Assembly (NCBI GenBank): GCA_029256575.1
Contig: JAQSXR010000015.1
Span: 1-64,000, forward strand
Reading direction: 5' to 3'
DNA length: 64,000 bases
Source: Clostridiales bacterium
GTDB lineage: Bacteria; Bacillota; Clostridia; Lachnospirales; JAQSXR01
Shown here piece by piece: positions 18,104 through 28,275 of this stretch (position 1 is the first letter of the stretch; every line of letters starts with the position of its first letter). The position numbers and the translations under genes were made by a program. The notes beneath the pieces were generated by a model. The model did no database searches, had not been told where the DNA came from, and saw nothing but the letters and a program-made list of their open reading frames with translations.

Positions 18104-21016
18104 CTACTTAATCAAATATTCATACACATCTTCTTGAACCTGAGCCTTCATTTTATAAACAATGCTTACAATCGGCAGCTTTTCCCCTTTGTCATTTGTG
18201 ATAGTAGTTTCCTTGCACTCCTCGATTATTGGTTCAATTTTACCTAAATAGTAGAAATCTCTTCCTTCTCCATCAGCTTTTTTTACAAACAGATGAATAC
18301 TAAGGCCATTTTCTTTATACCCCATTATACTTTGTACATCACTACTGCTAAAAGTACGATTGTTCTTTGTCATCCAACTGAATGTCTTTCTATCCAAAAA
18401 TTGATCTTCATATTTTGTGCTTCCATTAATATTATCACTTTTATGATATGTAACAAAAATTGGGCAAGTGTTATGTTTAATTTTATACCCATACATAACG
18501 GATGACTCATCTGAATCCCAATTCAAAAGTCTACATGCATCTTTTCTAGAATATTTCTTAAAAAGGGCAAGGTTCGTATCATCATATCTATTCGCAAAAT
18601 TATCCTCATATACGTTAAGTGCATAGTCTACAACATCTTGCAACAGTGCCCTAAATTCTTGTTTTTGTATTCCATTATAATACGATACCGCCCTCTTAAT
18701 AAGTCCTCTTTCGTCCACTTTTTCTGATTGAAACGGTACATTTTCTATGAAACTGCAATCTCCATATTTTACTTTGTCACTTCCACTAACAAATCCACTT
18801 TGAAGAATGTTGAGAGATTTTACTAGCGTTATATCATCATCTTCTATATTATAGCTATCAGCTAACTGTTCTTTGATGACGTCTAAATTGACTTGATCTT
18901 TTTCCATAAGTTGTTTCAAAATCATTAGTTCATGTGGTCGTTTTCCAGATGCTAATTGAGTCGAAACAAATTCTAAAAGCAACTCATTTTCTTTTGACAA
19001 TTTAACTGTGTAATCTTTTTCTACCTTCAATAAAAAATTATGGTAGTTTTTAGAGTATTCTAAAATAAGTGCAGGATCAATTGCTCCATTTTGATAAAAC
19101 TCTACAAGTGTTGGGATATGCCCAACCTTATTTTTCAAACTAACATATTCATCTTTTAATAGCTTCAAGGTTGTAAAACTTGTATTATTAATAGAATCAT
19201 AAATTCGTTCCTTTGCTATTGCATCAAAATTAATGGTTGAACAACCTGGTATTACACGATTCCCCTCAGCTACATATTTGCGTATTGTATCTTTATTAAA
19301 TGTTTTATCACCGGATAGTGCTATCGGGATCAAAAAATTCTTTTGATAGTTTCCAATGAAATCAATTAATACTACATATTCCTTATCTGTATATTTTCGA
19401 AGTCCTCGACCAAGCTGCTGAATAAAAATGATTGAAGATTCAGTCGGACGTAGCATGACGATCTGGTTTACACTTGGAATATCCACGCCTTCGTTAAATA
19501 TATCTACTGTAAATATATAGTCTAGTCCTCCTTCCCTATCCTCTTGTTCCAGCTTGACTAATGAAGCTTCTCTTGCTTCTTGACTGTCATCCCCACATAA
19601 AGCAACGGTCTGGTATCCTCTATTATTAAATAATCTAGAAAGCTCTCTTGCCTCTTCTTTTCTACTGCAAAATACTAATCCCCTTACTCTATTTCCACTG
19701 TACCCATAAAAATTAATTTTTTCAATTATATAGTCAACACGAATATCAGATACAAGTTTTGAGAATTCTGTTGTATCATCAATAATTACCCCATTTACTG
19801 TAAGCTCTGTAATTCCAAAATAGTGAAATGGGCACAATAAATCATTTTCCATTGCCTGTTGCAATCGAATCTCATAAGCAATGTTATGATCAAATAGTTT
19901 ATAAATGTTAATCCCATCAGTTCTCTCAGGTGTTGCTGTCATACCAAGTAAAAACTTAGGTTTAAAATAATCCAATATTTTTATGTAGCTACTCGCACCG
20001 GCCTTGTGTGTTTCATCTATTATTATGTAATCAAAATAATCTGGAGAAAATTCACTGTATACGCTCTCTTTTGACATCATTTGAACAGTAGAAAATAAGT
20101 AGTCTGTATCTATTTCTTTCATACTTCCTGATAACAAGCCCATTGAAATGTTTTCACCCAGAACATCTTTAAAACTTGCTATTGCCTGTTTCAGTATCTG
20201 TTCACGGTGAACCAAGAACAAAAGTTTCTTTGGCTTAACATTACGAACATCAAAAGCAGATAAATAAGTCTTACCTGTACCGGTTGCACTAATTATCAAA
20301 GCTTTATTCTTACTTTCACCTCTTAATTTATCCAAAGCCCTTGTAGCAGATATTTGCATTTTGTTTGGCTTTAGTATATATGACTTCATACTAATTAATT
20401 TCTGCTTGTCCCTTACTTTTTTGCTCTCCATATACAGCTGTTCATACTTTATTAGCCATTCTTCATTGAGTTCATCCGCTCGATTCCACATTGACTCAAA
20501 TTCATTCAGAGTTTCTTTAATCAATTCACCCTTTTCCAAAGAGGTAACCTTTAGACTCCACTCTTTATTGGACTTCAACGCTTGTTGTGTCATATTTGAA
20601 CTGCCTACTACAAAGGTATACTTTTCTTCATTCTTGAACATATATCCTTTTGTATGAAAATTCTCCTTTGTAAATACACGCACCTCTAAATTAGCGAAAC
20701 CTAGTAACTCTCGTAATGCACGTGGTTCACTAAATAGTTGATAATCAGTTGTTAATATTTTTCCATGTATGCCTTTTTCACGTAATTCTTTTAAAGTTTC
20801 TTTTAATACAATCAATCCGCCTCTTGTAATAAAAGCAACCGAAAACCAAAATGTCTTACAGTCTTGTAATTCATTTTGGATATTTGCAAGGACAGTATTG
20901 CCTTTATGGTAATCATTGTAAAGTAATTTTGGGCGTAGTTCTTCAGCTGATTCATAACTACTATCGACTAAACTTGTTCTTACTGACTCAAGTATCTTTT
21001 TTGTTAAATTATTCAT
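18104..21016 (-). CDS. PLD nuclease - DEAD/DEAH helicase - DUF3427 protein
   Basis: About 970 aa. The N-terminal phospholipase-D-like domain shows HTKGYMF (HxK, ~residue 125) and VVGSSNMTQQALKSNKEW (GSxN). A superfamily 2 helicase core follows: ATGTGKTYLSAFD (I), IIDETHKAG (DEAH-like DETH), MTATPERTDG (III), DIFNEGVDIPSVNQIVM (V) and QQLGRGLRK (VI). The C-terminal ~350 residues are of the DUF3427 type (FLDRKTFSWMTKNNRTFSS). The start at 21016 is preferred over 21031 because AAAGGGG precedes it at good spacing. The architecture is that of helicase-nucleases from restriction and defence loci; it probably cleaves or remodels foreign DNA. Confidence 0.88.
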   Translation of the reverse strand: MNNLTKKILESVRTSLVDSSYESAEELRPKLLYNDYHKGNTVLANIQNELQDCKTFWFSVAFITRGGLIVLKETLKELREKGIHGKILTTDYQLFSEPRALRELLGFANLEVRVFTKENFHTKGYMFKNEEKYTFVVGSSNMTQQALKSNKEWSLKVTSLEKGELIKETLNEFESMWNRADELNEEWLIKYEQLYMESKKVRDKQKLISMKSYILKPNKMQISATRALDKLRGESKNKALIISATGTGKTYLSAFDVRNVKPKKLLFLVHREQILKQAIASFKDVLGENISMGLLSGSMKEIDTDYLFSTVQMMSKESVYSEFSPDYFDYIIIDETHKAGASSYIKILDYFKPKFLLGMTATPERTDGINIYKLFDHNIAYEIRLQQAMENDLLCPFHYFGITELTVNGVIIDDTTEFSKLVSDIRVDYIIEKINFYGYSGNRVRGLVFCSRKEEARELSRLFNNRGYQTVALCGDDSQEAREASLVKLEQEDREGGLDYIFTVDIFNEGVDIPSVNQIVMLRPTESSIIFIQQLGRGLRKYTDKEYVVLIDFIGNYQKNFLIPIALSGDKTFNKDTIRKYVAEGNRVIPGCSTINFDAIAKERIYDSINNTSFTTLKLLKDEYVSLKNKVGHIPTLVEFYQNGAIDPALILEYSKNYHNFLLKVEKDYTVKLSKENELLLEFVSTQLASGKRPHELMILKQLMEKDQVNLDVIKEQLADSYNIEDDDITLVKSLNILQSGFVSGSDKVKYGDCSFIENVPFQSEKVDERGLIKRAVSYYNGIQKQEFRALLQDVVDYALNVYEDNFANRYDDTNLALFKKYSRKDACRLLNWDSDESSVMYGYKIKHNTCPIFVTYHKSDNINGSTKYEDQFLDRKTFSWMTKNNRTFSSSDVQSIMGYKENGLSIHLFVKKADGEGRDFYYLGKIEPIIEECKETTITNDKGEKLPIVSIVYKMKAQVQEDVYEYLIK

Positions 21017-21460
21017 TTTATCCCCTTTCATCGAATCATTTCTTTAGTAATTTATATAATTATTTACTTCATTAATCATCCCTATAATCATAAGCATTTG
21101 AATTCCCTTTGTTCAATAAAACTCTCTCCCGAATCTAATATTTAACTTACTTAATTTACTTAACCTCTTGTTTTGCATCAACACAACATCATTCTAGGAT
21201 TTAGTGATTAAATATAAATCTAAAACCCCCGAATAAGCCACTGATCAATCTGTAATATTTCATTACAAATTCCCAATAACCTACCGAGGGTAATTTTACA
21301 AGAATATTTATTTAATATAAAATTATAGTTTTTACTTAGAAGTCATAATACACAAGATGCCAATACTCTCCCCAATTTGTTACCTATTAATCTCTCTAAG
21401 GAAATTATATAACAAATATATCCATGCTACAAGCATAATATAATAAAACAGGACTATTTT
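21017..21460. other. Intergenic stretch without a recognisable gene
   Basis: No open frame of note. A small perfect hairpin TGTAAT/ATTACA lies near 21250-21267, within a longer weak pairing of ACCCCCG (~21222) and CGAGGGT (~21285). It could be a structured leader or a terminator, but there is no clear T-run. Confidence 0.4.
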
Positions 21461-21736: not shown

Positions 21737-22772
21737 TCATTCCTTAGTGACATCATCAAGAATTTCGATGTCGTGATAGTAAATCCAGACGCATTGTTCA
21801 GCTGTCCTTGAATATCTTTCAGCCTTTTCACCCACAACAATCCTGTCTATAAAAAGGTGTAATAGTTCTGACGTCACTTCTGTGATATCTGTATACCGTT
21901 TCGCTTTTTCAATAAACAGTTCTACATTCGTGAGGGAGTTTTTCATCTTTTCCATTTTTTCTTCTGCTTTTGGTATGTTTATTCTCAGAATTTTTTGTTC
22001 ATCCGTATACTCTGAAGACAACATCCGAAGGTGTTCATCTGGAATTCTTCCAAGGACATTATCCTCGTAAAGTCTTTTGAATAAGATTGTAAGCTCTGAG
22101 TCTCTGCGTTTCATATTATCCAATTCACGCTGAAGTCTTGTGAGCTCTTTTCTTGTTTCAAATGAATTTCGTTGATTGATATGTTCTGCAAATAATTTTT
22201 CTTGCTGTCTAGCAAAATGCGTCACACGTTTTAAATCATCAAGAATGATCGCTGTTAGCTGACTTTCCCTTGTATAATGGGAGTACATTCTTCTTTGCCA
22301 CGCTTTTTATAGGTGGAGCACATGAAGTTGTTTTAGTGTATTCCATCGTATGAGCTCGATGTTGCACTAAAGTACCACCGCAATCTTCACAAAATACCAG
22401 TCCAGAGAACATATTTGGCGTATCCATTTTCTTTGGTGGACGCTTTTTATGCTTTCGAATGCTTTGAACAATATCCCACAGTTCCTGAGTAATTAAAGGT
22501 TCATGGGTATTTTTAAAGACTAGCCATTCGGATTCAGGTCTTACAATCTGCCTTTTGATTTTGTAAGAAACAGTCGTGTGCTTCATATTTACGGCATGCA
22601 CAATATAGGTGATATCTTCTAAAATATTTGAGATGCTATTACCATTCCAATTATAAGGTCTTGTAGTATCAAGATTTGTAAGGGCAACACCTGTTTGCTT
22701 ATAATAGTAATTGGACGGTGTGATGATCTGATCTTCTTTTAATTTCCTTGCAATTTGTTTTGGAATACGGTA
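21737..22772 (-). pseudogene. Large serine recombinase (TnpX type, DUF4368), N-terminus missing
   Basis: The readable order is IPKQIARKLKEDQIITPSNY, then YNWNGNSISNILEDITYIV (recombinase domain), SEWLVFKNTHEPLIT, a zinc ribbon (MFSGLVFCEDCGGTLVQHR), and the coiled-coil C-terminus (TAIILDDLKRVTHFARQQEK; SELLHLFIDRIVVGE). The catalytic N-terminal domain (about 170 residues) is absent upstream of 22772. A one-base frame change near 22290 breaks the zinc-ribbon region. It lies just inside the left island border and is the likely former integrase of the element. Confidence 0.88.
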
Positions 22773-23274: not shown

Positions 23275-23475
23275 ATGAGCGAAAAGAACGATATAAATGA
23301 ACCTTGGGTAGGAACAAAAGAGATAGCCGAACATTTAGGGGTTACAAAGAATACTGTTCACAAATGGATAAAAGCTGGATCTATACCATGCAGCAGAGTC
23401 GGAAAGTTGTGGAAGTTTAAGAAATCAGAAATTGACGCTTGGGTAAAATCTGGCGGAGCTGTGGAGGAAAAATAA
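23275..23475 (+). CDS. Excisionase-type helix-turn-helix protein, 66 aa
   Basis: The protein is almost entirely one MerR/excisionase-like domain (EIAEHLGVTKNTVHKWIKAG, then SRVGKLWKFKKSEIDAWV), as in helix_turn_helix_17 proteins. It has an ideal AAAGGAGG ribosome binding site and a TATAAT -10 box at 23237-23242; no good -35 was seen. The methylase gene begins one base after its stop, so it is the first gene of the operon. It is likely the local regulator and may bind the repeat array just upstream. Confidence 0.88.
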   Translation: MSEKNDINEPWVGTKEIAEHLGVTKNTVHKWIKAGSIPCSRVGKLWKFKKSEIDAWVKSGGAVEEK

Positions 23476-23476
23476 T

Positions 23477-25294
23477 ATGGAAATGACTTATTTACAAAGA
23501 GCAATCAAAGATGGGTATGCTTTTATCTCAGGTGAAGATAAGACTGCAAAAATCACCTATGTTTCCTCTGACAATTTTAGTGCAAAATGGGGAAATCCAG
23601 AAGAAAACGTGCGTTCAGAATTTTGGGCAGAGCTTATTTATAAATATGATTATCCAGCTACACGAATAAGGCTTGAGGTAGTTATTCCCGATAGATTACC
23701 CACAGATAGAGCCGACATCGTTATATTCCGTGATGAAGAATGCAAGCGTCCTTATGCCATTGTTGAGTGTAAAAAAGACGGTATAACTGATGCAGAGTTT
23801 AACCAAGCAATTGAGCAAGGTGTAGGAAATGCTACATGGATTAAGTCACGTGCCGACTATGTAGTAACTATAGCAGGTGCAACACGCAGAGTATTGGATG
23901 TAACCGATACATATGGAATATATGAGCGTGAAACCAATATTGTGGCTGACCTACCAAAAGCCTATGGCAAACCACAAGAATACCGTTTTTATAAAGGTGA
24001 TAAGGATAATGATATTAAAATTATCTCCAGAGATGACTTAATAACAACGATTAAAAAATGCCATCAAACCCTTTGGGGTGGCGGAAGACTTTCACCACCT
24101 ACTGCCTTTGGTGAACTATGCAAACTGATATTTGTTAAGATTAGCGATGAGCAAAAACCACGAAGAAATGGTGAGCCTTATGAGTTCCAAATAAAAACCC
24201 ATGAGCCATCAAGCAAACTGGCAGAACGCATCAACAAGCTTTATGATGAGCAAAAGGTAAAAGATCCAGAAATTTTTACTGAAAGCATTAAGGTAGATGA
24301 CAGAGTTTTAAGAACAGTAGTTTCTCACTTGGAGAGTATAAACCTAAATAAAACAGATCTTGATGTTAAAGGTGTTGCCTTTGAGAAGTTTATGGATAGC
24401 TTTTTCAAGGGCGATTTTGGTCAGTACTTTACACCACGACCAATTATTGAATTTGCAGTTAAAATGATGAAACCTAAACATGATGATTATGTGCTCGATA
24501 CTTCTTGCGGTAGTGGCGGTTTCTTACTTCATGCTCTTGATTATATTAGACACGAAGCAAATGATTATCACATTAAAGGAACTCCGGAACACTATAAACA
24601 CTGGCATGATTTTGCGGAAAAATATCTATTTGGAATTGAAATAAATGACGAAATTGCACGTGTTGCTAAAATGAATATGATTGTCCATGATGATGGGCAC
24701 ACCAATGTTATCAGCCATGATGCACTAGAAAGCATTGATAAAATGTACGAACACAATAGAGGTTTTAAGAAAGAGCATTTTGATTTAATTCTGACAAATC
24801 CACCATTTGGTTCACAGATAAATCTTGCTGAGAAGCCTTATTTATCCACGTATCAATTGGGTAATAATTATGATGCAAAAGGCAAGGCAAAAGCACGTAA
24901 AAACCAAAAAACAGAAATTCTTTTCTTGGAGCGTATTTGGGAGTTTTTGAAATATGGAACAGGCAAAGCTGCTGTGGTTCTCCCTGATGGAATTTTAACC
25001 AATAGCTCTCTACAATATGTGCGTGGCTATATCATGGAGAAATTTCAATTATTGGCTGTTGTCAGCTTTCCGCAAACTGCTTTTGCACACTTTGGTGCAG
25101 GTGTTAAGTCCTCTATCATCTTCTTGCGAAAGCGTGGCAAAGATGAATTAATGAGTAATGACGAAGTTATTTTTATGGCAGCACCAGAACTCATTGGGTA
25201 TGACGCAACAGGAAGAGAAACAGAAAACCAATTTGATGAGGTTGTGAAACAATACGAAGCTTTTTTAGAAGATGCTACCCCTTTTTTTGTCTAA
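23477..25294 (+). CDS. PD-(D/E)XK nuclease fused to N6-adenine methyltransferase (type IIG/BcgI-A-like)
   Basis: 605 aa. Residues 1-170 look like a type I HsdR N-terminal nuclease domain: DRADIVIFRDEE with AIVECKK gives the D...ExK active site. From ~290 on it is an HsdM-like methyltransferase: FGQYFTPRPIIEFAV, motif I LDTSCGSGGFLLHAL and the adenine motif IV LILTNPPFGS. No helicase is present here or next to it, so cleavage would rely on the N-terminal nuclease, as in BcgI-type and other type IIG enzymes. The gene ends in a T7 run followed by GTC TAA; a -1 shift there would continue into the specificity gene. It begins one base after the HTH gene. Confidence 0.85.
   Translation: MEMTYLQRAIKDGYAFISGEDKTAKITYVSSDNFSAKWGNPEENVRSEFWAELIYKYDYPATRIRLEVVIPDRLPTDRADIVIFRDEECKRPYAIVECKKDGITDAEFNQAIEQGVGNATWIKSRADYVVTIAGATRRVLDVTDTYGIYERETNIVADLPKAYGKPQEYRFYKGDKDNDIKIISRDDLITTIKKCHQTLWGGGRLSPPTAFGELCKLIFVKISDEQKPRRNGEPYEFQIKTHEPSSKLAERINKLYDEQKVKDPEIFTESIKVDDRVLRTVVSHLESINLNKTDLDVKGVAFEKFMDSFFKGDFGQYFTPRPIIEFAVKMMKPKHDDYVLDTSCGSGGFLLHALDYIRHEANDYHIKGTPEHYKHWHDFAEKYLFGIEINDEIARVAKMNMIVHDDGHTNVISHDALESIDKMYEHNRGFKKEHFDLILTNPPFGSQINLAEKPYLSTYQLGNNYDAKGKAKARKNQKTEILFLERIWEFLKYGTGKAAVVLPDGILTNSSLQYVRGYIMEKFQLLAVVSFPQTAFAHFGAGVKSSIIFLRKRGKDELMSNDEVIFMAAPELIGYDATGRETENQFDEVVKQYEAFLEDATPFFV
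25282..25288 (+). promoter_or_regulatory. Candidate -1 slippery heptamer (T7) at the methylase/specificity junction
   Basis: The seven T residues are phased as T TTT TTT in the methylase frame, the canonical X XXY YYZ form. After a -1 slip the frame avoids the TAA at 25292 and reads CLTPNSQELQIFT before entering the specificity frame at the GTG of 25327. The same run could also vary in length by slipped-strand replication. No downstream stimulatory structure was established. Confidence 0.55.
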
Positions 25295-25326
25295 CCCCCA
25301 ACTCGCAGGAGCTTCAAATTTTTACG

Positions 25327-26673
25327 GTGAAATTGGGGGAAATACAAAGCAGACTTGATGTTAATTACAATTTACCAGAATATCAATTCTTAGAGAGAGA
25401 ATTGCGCAGTAAATTTAATAATATCAAAACTATTAGTGATTATTCTGATGTTGTTTGTGGACCATTTGGAAGTTCTATTACTGATAAGGACTATTGTGAT
25501 GAAGGTGTCCCGTTATTAAGAATAACAAATATTACTCGTGAAGGTAAACTTGACTTCGTAGACCTAAAATACATAAGTGAAGAATTATCAAATAAACTAT
25601 CAAGCACACAGGTTTTTAACGGGGATATCGTTATTTCTCAAAGGGGAACATTAGGGCAATGTGCGATTGTAGACGATGCATTCAATGTTTACAATATTTC
25701 TGCAAACTTAATCGCAGTGAAAAATATCAAAAATATGTCTGCAAAATATATTAGAAATTATGTGCTTTCATCAATTGGCATTAAATTTTTAGAACGAGCC
25801 CAAAGCGGACAGGTTCAAGGCAAAATAACAACTACGGATATTTCATCAATGCCTATTCCAAAGATTGAAAATGAAGAATTATTAAATTCGATAATGGAAA
25901 AAGGGTTTTTGACTTATCAAAATAAAATCACACAAGCTGAAGAATTACTAAAAGGTATGGACTTGTATGTACTGTCTACATTAGGTCTTGAAATTCCTGA
26001 TTATACGCAAAGGCTTTGTAATGCAGTAAAGCTCAGGACGGTAAAAACTGACAACACATTAAACGCAGATTTCTATCATCCAGAACGAATTGGAATAATC
26101 AGAATGATGGAACAAAACACGCATATAAAGACAAAAAGGTTGGTTGACACAGTAGATTTCTGCCGTGATATCGTATCCGCTAATAATGAAAATCTTCGGT
26201 ATATAGGTCTTGCAAGCGTTCAAAGTCATACGGGAGAATTATTAAATATAGAGGAAGAAGCAAGTGGCCAAGCATTTGCATTTTTAAAAAATGACGTATT
26301 GTATGGCAGATTGAGACCATATCTCAATAAAGTATTTGTAGCGGAAGAGAATGGTGTTTGTTCAACGGAGTTTCATGTAATGAGAATGAAAACTGAAGAT
26401 ATACTACCCAATTATTTATCAGTAATCATGCGAACTCTTATTATTCTTGGACAAACACGACACATGATGACGGGTAACACACATCCTCGTATAGCAAACG
26501 CAGAAGTAGAAAATTTGCATATTCCTATTCCAAGCAAAGAGATACAACAACAGATAGCGGATGAAGCTATTCGCCGACGAACTATTGCAAGGAAGTTAAA
26601 GGAAGAGGCTGAAATTGACTGGAAAACGGCAAAAGAACAGTTTGAGAAAGAGTTATTTGGGGGTGATAAATAA
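25327..26673 (+). CDS. Type I-like specificity (S) subunit
   Basis: 448 aa with two target-recognition halves. The first is around residues 30-215 (VVCGPFGSSITDKDY, GDIVISQRGTLGQCAIVDDA, GQVQGKITTTDISSMPIP). The second is around 245-448 (VLYGRLRPYLNKVFVA, MTGNTHPRIANAEVENLHIP), each ending in a helix, as in HsdS. The annotated GTG at 25327 has no ribosome binding site at proper distance, and the frame is open upstream with plausible coding (NSQELQIFTVKLGEI). It may therefore be made mainly as an extension of the methylase by frameshifting. Its stop overlaps the next start (TAATG). Confidence 0.85.
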   Translation: MKLGEIQSRLDVNYNLPEYQFLERELRSKFNNIKTISDYSDVVCGPFGSSITDKDYCDEGVPLLRITNITREGKLDFVDLKYISEELSNKLSSTQVFNGDIVISQRGTLGQCAIVDDAFNVYNISANLIAVKNIKNMSAKYIRNYVLSSIGIKFLERAQSGQVQGKITTTDISSMPIPKIENEELLNSIMEKGFLTYQNKITQAEELLKGMDLYVLSTLGLEIPDYTQRLCNAVKLRTVKTDNTLNADFYHPERIGIIRMMEQNTHIKTKRLVDTVDFCRDIVSANNENLRYIGLASVQSHTGELLNIEEEASGQAFAFLKNDVLYGRLRPYLNKVFVAEENGVCSTEFHVMRMKTEDILPNYLSVIMRTLIILGQTRHMMTGNTHPRIANAEVENLHIPIPSKEIQQQIADEAIRRRTIARKLKEEAEIDWKTAKEQFEKELFGGDK

Positions 26674-28124
26674 TGAAACTGAGTGGAATTGTTGATTATA
26701 CAATGGGTAATTTTCTATGTTTAAGGGGTTATGCATCATTTAAAGACTTGTCTCGCATTTCCCAGCCAAACCCTGATTATCAACGCCCCTTAATAGATAA
26801 TCATAAAGGGGACATGGCACGTTTTTTAAATCAAGGAGAATATCTTTTTTTCCCAGAAGTGATTTTATCATTATCCTTAGCAACAAATGGTAATTACGAT
26901 GAAATTAGAAATATACAAACCATCATTTCAGCAGGTGATACTTGGAATGGGTCTTTAGGTGATTTTAAGATTGATATGTCTAAAAACGAAACTAAGTCGC
27001 ATAGTGGTGGAGTTAATAGAGTACGGCTTGGTCACATTACGTTTGACGAATCTAAAATAAAGCTTAATAGAATTGATGGAAATCACCGAATGAGTGCTGC
27101 TGATGAAACAATCAGTGACTTCAAAACCCCCTTTTGTATTTTGCTATTTGCAAACGAACAGGAGAATGAAAAATTTTCTCGAGCAATATTTCACAACGTG
27201 AACGCAAAACAAATTCCGTTAAAGTTAGAAGAAAACTTGAAAGTTATTTTAGATAACGATCTTGTTTATTCCGATACTTCACTGACTAGCTCATTTGGTT
27301 ATAATTACTATTTGGCACGGAAAACATTAAAAAGTATAGATTTGGCATATTTCGCCAATTTCAACACCTACATAGGAACTTCGAAATACACTTTTTTTGT
27401 GGCATTATTTGAATACCTCATTAGTAACAATAGCATTCCAAATACTGATGAATCAATTGAAATAATTAAAGGACAACTTGTAGATATAGAAACTGCTCTT
27501 GCTGAATCACAAGTTGTTGCAACAACTACCAATATTGCTATTATAGGTGCACTGGCTTATTACAAATTGACTAATCAGCTAAAATACCGTGGTTTTATGT
27601 CTTGGATTAAGAAAAATAACCTTGGAAATGTTCAAATGTTGCATATAGGTGATGTAATAAAACTCTATGATGAAATAGCTGCACATACTCCTAAAAGAGC
27701 TTTCTTGGCAAGGTGGTACCCATCAGAAACAGATTCAGCATATACTAAGTCAAAGCATCGAATAGATGCGATGAAACAGGTGGCTGATGAACTCAATCTT
27801 GATTTGACGGATCTTGGAACAAAAGATACAGGTGCATTTGATATCAGAGAAGTTATGTATCACGATATACGTGAATGTGATGTATTTATTGCAGACTTAA
27901 CGGGGGCGCGCCACAATGTAATGATTGAAGTTGGATATGCTTTAAAGCATATCGGAACTGGACGAATGGTATTCTATTTTCAAGAAACTGAAAATTGCAA
28001 AGCTGTTCCATTTGATATCAGTCATCTAGCGTACGACCTTATTGTTGATTCAGCAGAGATAAAGAGTAAAACAAAAACAAGAATTCAAAAGGTCATTTTG
28101 CAAGCAATGAATGGAGAAATATAG
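26673..28124 (+). CDS. DGQHR-like domain fused to NDT/TIR-like nucleotide-binding domain
   Basis: 483 aa. Residues ~100-200 resemble the DGQHR/DndB-type ParB-like fold: IKLNRIDGNHRMSAADE gives DGNHR in place of DGQHR, followed by TPFCILLFANEQENEKF and FHNVNAKQIPL. The C-terminal ~130 residues resemble nucleoside deoxyribosyltransferase/TIR-like effector domains: ECDVFIADLTGARHNVMIEV-GYA with a conserved Glu in the NVMxE turn, and VPFDISHLAYD later. The gene starts inside the S stop codon (TAATG) and is the last of the island. A damage- or invasion-triggered NAD/nucleotide-cleaving effector tied to modification status is an inference. Confidence 0.7.
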   Translation: MKLSGIVDYTMGNFLCLRGYASFKDLSRISQPNPDYQRPLIDNHKGDMARFLNQGEYLFFPEVILSLSLATNGNYDEIRNIQTIISAGDTWNGSLGDFKIDMSKNETKSHSGGVNRVRLGHITFDESKIKLNRIDGNHRMSAADETISDFKTPFCILLFANEQENEKFSRAIFHNVNAKQIPLKLEENLKVILDNDLVYSDTSLTSSFGYNYYLARKTLKSIDLAYFANFNTYIGTSKYTFFVALFEYLISNNSIPNTDESIEIIKGQLVDIETALAESQVVATTTNIAIIGALAYYKLTNQLKYRGFMSWIKKNNLGNVQMLHIGDVIKLYDEIAAHTPKRAFLARWYPSETDSAYTKSKHRIDAMKQVADELNLDLTDLGTKDTGAFDIREVMYHDIRECDVFIADLTGARHNVMIEVGYALKHIGTGRMVFYFQETENCKAVPFDISHLAYDLIVDSAEIKSKTKTRIQKVILQAMNGEI

Positions 28125-28236: not shown

Positions 28237-28275
28237 AAATGCACCTTAGGATAATCAATGTCCTAAGGTGCATTT
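28237..28275. terminator. Bidirectional hairpin terminator after the R-M operon
   Basis: AAATGCACCTTAGGA (28237-28251) pairs perfectly with TCCTAAGGTGCATTT (28261-28275), loop of 9. The minus-strand side is followed by TTTACTT; the plus side has only a weak T-run. Confidence 0.75.

Follow-up and report, generated by a model that had tools for sequence, protein, structure and literature searches.

The best-known cases of programmed ribosomal frameshifting in bacteria are those of dnaX, prfB, insertion sequences and phage tails. In E. coli dnaX (tau/gamma), an A_AAA_AAG heptamer with a strong Shine-Dalgarno (SD) sequence yields two products, of which the frameshift product is the short one. Here we describe a comparable junction between a restriction-modification (R-M) nuclease-methylase gene, RM, and the gene of its specificity subunit, S, in a 64,000-nt stretch of DNA from a Clostridiales bacterium (contig JAQSXR010000015.1, positions 1 to 64,000; hereafter, the window). 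With dnaX it shares an in-phase heptamer, a hairpin about 6 nt downstream and, as proposed below, two products in fixed proportion; it differs in its U_UUU_UUY heptamer, in that the shift product would usually be the long form, and in its gene family. As in the IS3 family and in phage tail-chaperone genes, the shift would give a C-terminally extended fusion of neighbouring open reading frames (ORFs); unlike in those systems, there is no transposase or tail gene and no long ORF overlap, and the shift site usually lies one codon from the stop.

The closest described enzymes are the type IIB systems BcgI and BsaXI, in which nuclease and methylase form one RM chain and S carries two target recognition domains (TRDs). 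The RM gene of the window encodes the same combination, and RM.BsaXI (8w0p) is its best solved relative (E 6.9e-38, sequence search). BsaXI assembles as (RM)2S (PMC11997821) from separate RM and S subunits, whereas in the window a frameshift would fuse the two. The engineered EcoKI M-S fusion (type IMS) likewise joins a methylase to a two-TRD S; it was active in vivo and required additional free HsdM for cleavage in vitro (PMC3510504). Unlike the window system, it was made by mutagenesis, has no natural frameshift signal and works with a separate HsdR. The MADS system is also similar, in that the helix-turn-helix (HTH), methylase and S genes of the window score with the MAD1, MAD2 and MAD5 models, the only ones compared; all three scores lie below the curated cut-offs (61/80, 311.8/720 and 96.6/400 bits, respectively).

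Provisionally, we found no earlier report of an R-M frameshift of this kind in the open-access literature. The GeneTack clusters include no R-M case (PMC3711429), nor do the accessible parts of a recoding review (PMC5009743); PRFect names methyltransferases and MuF-like genes merely in passing (PMC10885494), and a suspected frameshift in a C-protein/REase fusion was tested and none was seen (PMC3850674).

Based on the comparison of homologous loci, we assign a probability of about 0.88 to the junction being a -1 programmed frameshift signal that gives both RM and an RM-S fusion. A preliminary description of the window had proposed such a dual output as one of two candidates. The proposal is supported by the conserved heptamer, phase and spacing, a covarying hairpin, a conserved -1 linker, unconserved S starts, natural in-frame fusions and an inverted junction in Picosynechococcus PCC 7002.

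The slippery site at the RM-S junction

The elements of the junction are listed below; L-numbers designate homologous loci, which were collected by scanning genome and viral contigs.

23477..25294, + strand: RM gene, with an N-terminal HSDR_N_2 nuclease (PF13588, 9.9e-13) and an N6 adenine methylase (PF02384, 1.6e-41)
25279..25285, + strand: second in-phase heptamer, C_CCT_TTT, overlapping the next one; present also in L032 and L034
25282..25288, + strand: slippery heptamer T_TTT_TTT in the RM frame; in phase in all same-type RM-S homologues (L060 degenerate)
25289..25294, + strand: 6-nt spacer GTCTAA containing the zero-frame stop; 6 nt in all tabulated junctions
25288..26673, + strand: -1-frame ORF of 461 codons, comprising the linker CLTPNSQELQIFTVKLGEI... 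and the S subunit (TRD1-CR1-TRD2-CR2, CR being a conserved region), from ORF reading, linker conservation and the S model
25295..25301, + strand: 5' arm of the hairpin, CCCCCAA, from folding and homologue comparison
25327..25329, + strand: GTG commonly read as the S start; in the alignment it falls on a conserved V/I of the linker, and no start is conserved there
25333..25339, + strand: 3' arm of the hairpin, TTGGGGG; the arms covary across homologues

The zero-frame RM product has 605 aa, and its frame ends in ...GAT GCT ACC CCT TTT TTT GTC TAA, with the stop at 25292-25294. The preliminary description had placed a T_TTT_TTT run in this frame close to the stop and had argued that a -1 slip would avoid the stop and enter the S frame. 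Both observations hold: the run matches the X_XXY_YYZ pattern in the zero frame with a single sense codon (GTC) before the stop, and the -1 frame is open from 25240 through to 26673. From the slip, the -1 reading is TTT TTT TGT CTA ACC CCC AAC TCG CAG GAG CTT CAA ATT TTT ACG GTG AAA, or FF-CLTPNSQELQIFTVKLGEIQSRLDV as peptide; from 25288 onwards it spells CLTPNSQELQIFT and runs into the S ORF, so that RM plus the -1-frame ORF would amount to a 1065-aa fusion. U_UUU_UUC, U_UUU_UUU and C_CCU_UUU are among the heptamers that shift at more than 0.1% in E. coli even when no stimulator is present (PMC4066793).

Among 43 long frames of the 64-kb window, an in-phase heptamer occurs within the last 6 codons in three, and a long -1 ORF extends beyond the stop in five. 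A single such coincidence in 64 kb is unremarkable; the significance of the site rests on its conservation.

Conservation among homologous junctions

An alignment of homologous loci showed that the run and the frame relation are conserved: 22 RM-S junctions, with RM identities down to about 30% and in three clades, keep the in-phase heptamer, the 6-nt spacer and the hairpin. The heptamer is U_UUU_UUY except for C_CCU_UUU once and a degenerate form once (L060); such conservation of heptamer and phase in divergent homologues is expected of a frameshift site. Assemblies of Clostridia, Lentisphaerota and Synergistota contribute junctions, as do viral contigs, one Klebsiella plasmid and chromosomes of E. 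coli. Recurrence in bacteria this different shows that the signal is kept by selection. Many of the homologues are from metagenome assemblies, but those of E. coli, Klebsiella and PCC 7002 lie on complete replicons.

At 74-79% RM identity, eight relatives were found in Clostridia, Ruminococcaceae, Lentisphaeria, Synergistales and one viral contig. Seven of them reach the junction, of which six (L031-L034, L036 and L038) carry CCT TTT TTY GNN TRA CCC CC in the same phase and the seventh, L035, is an in-frame RM-S fusion. In L060-L062 (45-47% RM identity), the RM product ends in FL*, FFL* or FFR*, and the -1 frame leads into S through FFSLSP; the spacer is again 6 nt, the hairpin is of the GCCC.../...GGGGC form, and the heptamer is T_TTT_TTT in L061 and L062. 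The third clade (about 30-33%; L087, L088, L090, L213, L215, L216, L217, L139, L219, L222 and L231) has AGT TTT TTY followed by GCCC-type hairpins, the longest of about 18 bp. L219 has C_CCT_TTT in place of the usual heptamer with the 6-nt spacing unchanged, and L217 has an extra stop in its S frame and may be a decayed copy. L222 is the Klebsiella plasmid, and three E. coli chromosomes carry exactly its junction; in all of these the zero-frame stop lies 10 codons past the heptamer, and heptamer, spacer and hairpin are retained. Random sampling of the class yielded no additional close relatives, and the families of three relatives contained none beyond those known.

A missing run together with a normal S start, which the preliminary description had named as the finding that would speak against it, occurs only in L078, L089, L220 and L226. 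These mostly more distant relatives have an ordinary ATG S start and lack the hairpin as well, and homologues of the same type keep the run. In L078 (6700-7476), an ATG-started half S with a single TRD follows RM in the other frame, a split, non-frameshift arrangement of the same family.

R-M genes often undergo phase variation through homopolymer tracts, and the preliminary description had raised this as its second candidate: replication slippage would alter the length of the run and toggle the S fusion across the population. Type III mod genes are a cited case (PMC3711429). The homologues speak against this explanation, which we consider highly improbable. The tract is short (T6-T7) and fixed at T6C or T7, with CCCTTTT once; its length does not vary between close relatives, a frame-restoring change was never seen among same-type homologues, and the three E. 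coli and one Klebsiella isolates are identical at the junction.

The downstream hairpin

A 45-nt hairpin (CCCCCAA/UUGGGGG, 25295-25339), overlooked in the preliminary description, begins 6 nt after the heptamer. In close homologues, CCCCC(G/A).. pairs with ..(C/T)GGGGG in a helix starting at the same distance. When arms were permuted across loci, own arms paired at 7.81 of 9 positions versus 5.95 for swapped arms (p = 5e-5). Within the third clade the same test gave p = 1.5e-4, while within the first, whose stem hardly varies, it had no power (p 0.6); the covariation signal comes from the comparison between clades and from within the third clade. Compensatory pair types occur at helix positions 1, 4, 5 and 6, and position 5 alone is found as C-G, A-U, G-C, U-G and G-U. 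The site thus has a downstream RNA structure within the 5-9 nt typical of frameshift sites, with support from covariation. Additionally, synonymous change appears suppressed near the site, since the rare stem codons Gly GGG (7/7) and Arg CGG (6/6) are fixed, with log10 P about -6 for each on the assumption of independent loci. An intrinsic terminator was also considered for this hairpin and was rejected, as no U tract follows it.

The spacing of the hairpin bears on transcriptional slippage, in which RNA polymerase would insert or skip a U at the run, so that the fusion would arise from a heterogeneous set of mRNAs. Slippage of this type is known in bacteria (PMC5009743), and a T6-T7 homopolymer could serve it. 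Nevertheless, most homologues have only T6C and one has CCCTTTT, the reading phase of the run is fixed, and an exact 6-nt distance to a covarying hairpin fits a ribosomal stimulator; we regard polymerase slippage as very unlikely.

The S linker and its start codons

The window S has two Methylase_S stretches, in agreement with a two-TRD subunit. An AlphaFold model of moderate confidence (mean pLDDT 69, 6 homologues in the alignment) predicts a TRD1-helix-TRD2-helix arrangement, with type I S subunits and the S of BsaXI as best fold matches.

The best-conserved part of S is its -1-frame linker, with an identity of 0.56 versus 0.33 for the remaining S; the linker is the higher of the two in 21/21 pairs and in 20/21 in a second comparison. 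Over this region the -1 frame alone is stop-free, and all close homologues have a near-identical form of [CR][ILM]TP....L..FA[IV]..G.I..R.D.

The preliminary description was also right that the GTG start lacks a properly spaced ribosome binding site: AGGAG (25307-25311) lies 15 nt upstream of GTG 25327, which is too far, while ATT 25318 is properly spaced from it. Neither an S start nor an SD sequence is conserved among homologues, and past the RM stop no ATG, GTG or TTG lies within reach in 240 nt of L031 or in 130 nt of L032. Since S lacks a dependable start codon, most or all of it is probably made as the RM-S fusion. In L222 (5998-7389), NZ_CP076272.1, NZ_CP133811.1 and NZ_CM169500.1, the annotated S start is a TTG inside the conserved linker GLLEGLEA, without a ribosome binding site; the true N-terminus there is probably that of an RM-S fusion.

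Two separate genes linked by translational coupling would require ribosomes that have finished RM to re-initiate on S at a weak start, be it ATT 25318, GTG 25327 or a codon overlapping the stop. The AGGAG of the window, an ATG overlapping the RM stop in L033, L038 and L216, and the ordinary ATG starts of L078, L089, L220 and L226 are in line with this. On the other hand, the conserved linker lies upstream of any start, L031 has no candidate codon in reach, no start or SD is conserved, and the signal persists where the stop is 10 codons away (Klebsiella and E. coli) or absent (PCC 7002, below). Coupling also leaves the slippery site unexplained, and we judge it unlikely, if less so than polymerase slippage.

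In-frame fusions and an inverted junction

Natural in-frame RM-S proteins occur in L035, L059, L077, L079 and PCC 7002 (L221). The first four have a short S part of about one TRD, and no frameshift-type site was found in them; these chains could dimerise, which would be consistent with an (RM)2S model. In the RM tree, L059 and L035 are nested in the frameshift group, with L059 beside L034 (support 99/99), so that in-frame fusion and frameshift interconvert.

On plasmid pAQ6 of Picosynechococcus PCC 7002, RM and S form one 1179-aa chain, and the junction keeps AGT TTT TTT GAA CAA with a long hairpin behind it. Slipping by -1 here would give the reading TTT TTT TGA, an immediate stop that releases free RM with a predicted size of about 75 kDa and the end ...LSFF, the shift product being the short form as in dnaX. 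That heptamer and hairpin are kept despite the reversed frame relation argues that the making of both RM and RM-S is what selection maintains. A strict rule, by which a two-TRD S would go with frameshifting and a one-TRD S with in-frame fusion, was discarded, as PCC 7002 combines a two-TRD in-frame S with a retained slippery site.

The existence of in-frame fusions (L035, L059, L221) could also suggest that the window junction is a recent inactivating or sequencing indel in a former fusion. The same junction at 22 loci, complete genomes included, with a covarying hairpin and an undecayed linker, leaves this explanation hardly any probability. An assembly error was rejected, the junction being common to complete genomes.

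Proposed mechanism and subunit stoichiometry

We infer that ribosomes slip at the heptamer itself. The hairpin 6 nt downstream would impede them at U_UUU_UUU of the nuclease-methylase mRNA; the majority would read GTC-UAA and release the 605-aa RM, while a fraction would re-pair both tRNAs one base back, bypass the stop and read the linker and then S. The resulting RM-S, of about 1065 aa and about 120 kDa, is predicted to have the junction peptide ...ATPFFCLTPNSQELQIF.

Since the engineered EcoKI M-S needed extra HsdM and BsaXI is (RM)2S, we propose that the joint supply of RM and RM-S serves to build a BsaXI-like (RM)2S enzyme from one copy of each, a purpose that we favour somewhat.

Several points weigh against a programmed frameshift with this role. 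The hairpin of the window itself is modest (z -1.0 to -1.6), the heptamer of L060 is degenerate (T_TCT_TTT), and an SD-like AGGA 11 nt upstream, an optional stimulator that does not define such sites and is present in 13/21 homologues, is absent in the window. The ATT codon could yield some free S in this genome, and the stop-overlapping ATG codons of three homologues point the same way. The homologues share descent, so that tests assuming independence are optimistic. Finally, a separate supply of RM is not strictly required, because single-chain two-TRD RMS enzymes of type IIB are known (PMC11997821).

If correct, the frameshift would mean that the stoichiometry of a defence-system enzyme is set by an RNA signal, and would explain how a nuclease-bearing methylase is made in set proportion to its specificity subunit. 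S starts in such operons would be misannotated and the RM-S fusions absent from protein databases. E. coli and the laboratory cyanobacterium PCC 7002 offer systems in which this can be tested.

A similar signal in phage portal-MuF genes

An independent DNA pattern, TTTTTTCGNNTAAGCCC, matched at least 120 stretches in viral contigs. Among the 120 listed, the match lies at the end of a long zero-frame ORF and is accompanied by a long -1 ORF in 105, a layout found at 0/587 other TTTTTTC sites. In the matches checked, a phage portal gene is joined to a MuF-type head gene, except in L139, which is an RM-S pair. Between the portal and MuF/head-morphogenesis ORFs (L057:2760-4205; L093-L211), T_TTT_TTC GNN TRA precedes a [G/C]CCC-hairpin, with MuF in the -1 frame, and PHROG 35074 spans the portal and MuF parts as one protein. 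Frameshifting at portal-MuF junctions thus looks widespread in phages, and the -1-frame signature FF[RSC][ILMV][ST]P would find further frameshift genes straight from DNA.

More speculatively, U_UUU_UUY, the 6-nt stop-bearing spacer and the [G/C]CCC hairpin might form a portable cassette common to phage portal-MuF and R-M genes that sets the RM:RM-S ratio, such that translational conditions, e.g., phage infection, would tip the system towards methylase or towards sequence-specific restriction enzyme. We consider this doubtful.

Operon and genomic context

The remaining features of the operon are as follows.

23275..23475, + strand: small HTH (excisionase/MAD1-like) gene at the operon head (HTH_17 1.8e-16; MAD1 61 bits, cut-off 80)
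26673..28124, + strand: gene of a DGQHR-domain protein with a TIR/deoxyribosyltransferase-like C-terminus, from domain and profile matches
28237..28275, + strand: terminator-like hairpin closing the operon

The DGQHR gene lies directly downstream of S in L031, L032, L033, L060 and L061 as well, and its product probably serves the RM-S system as an effector or a third component. In L076 (4661-7817), a DGQHR gene directly follows RM with no S between them.

At 18104-21031 of the window, a divergent gene encodes a type IV-like restriction helicase (PADLOC mREase_IV, 4.8e-248), which places the locus within a defence island. At 21737-22601, two overlapping minus-strand ORFs look, by eye, like fragments of one broken serine recombinase.
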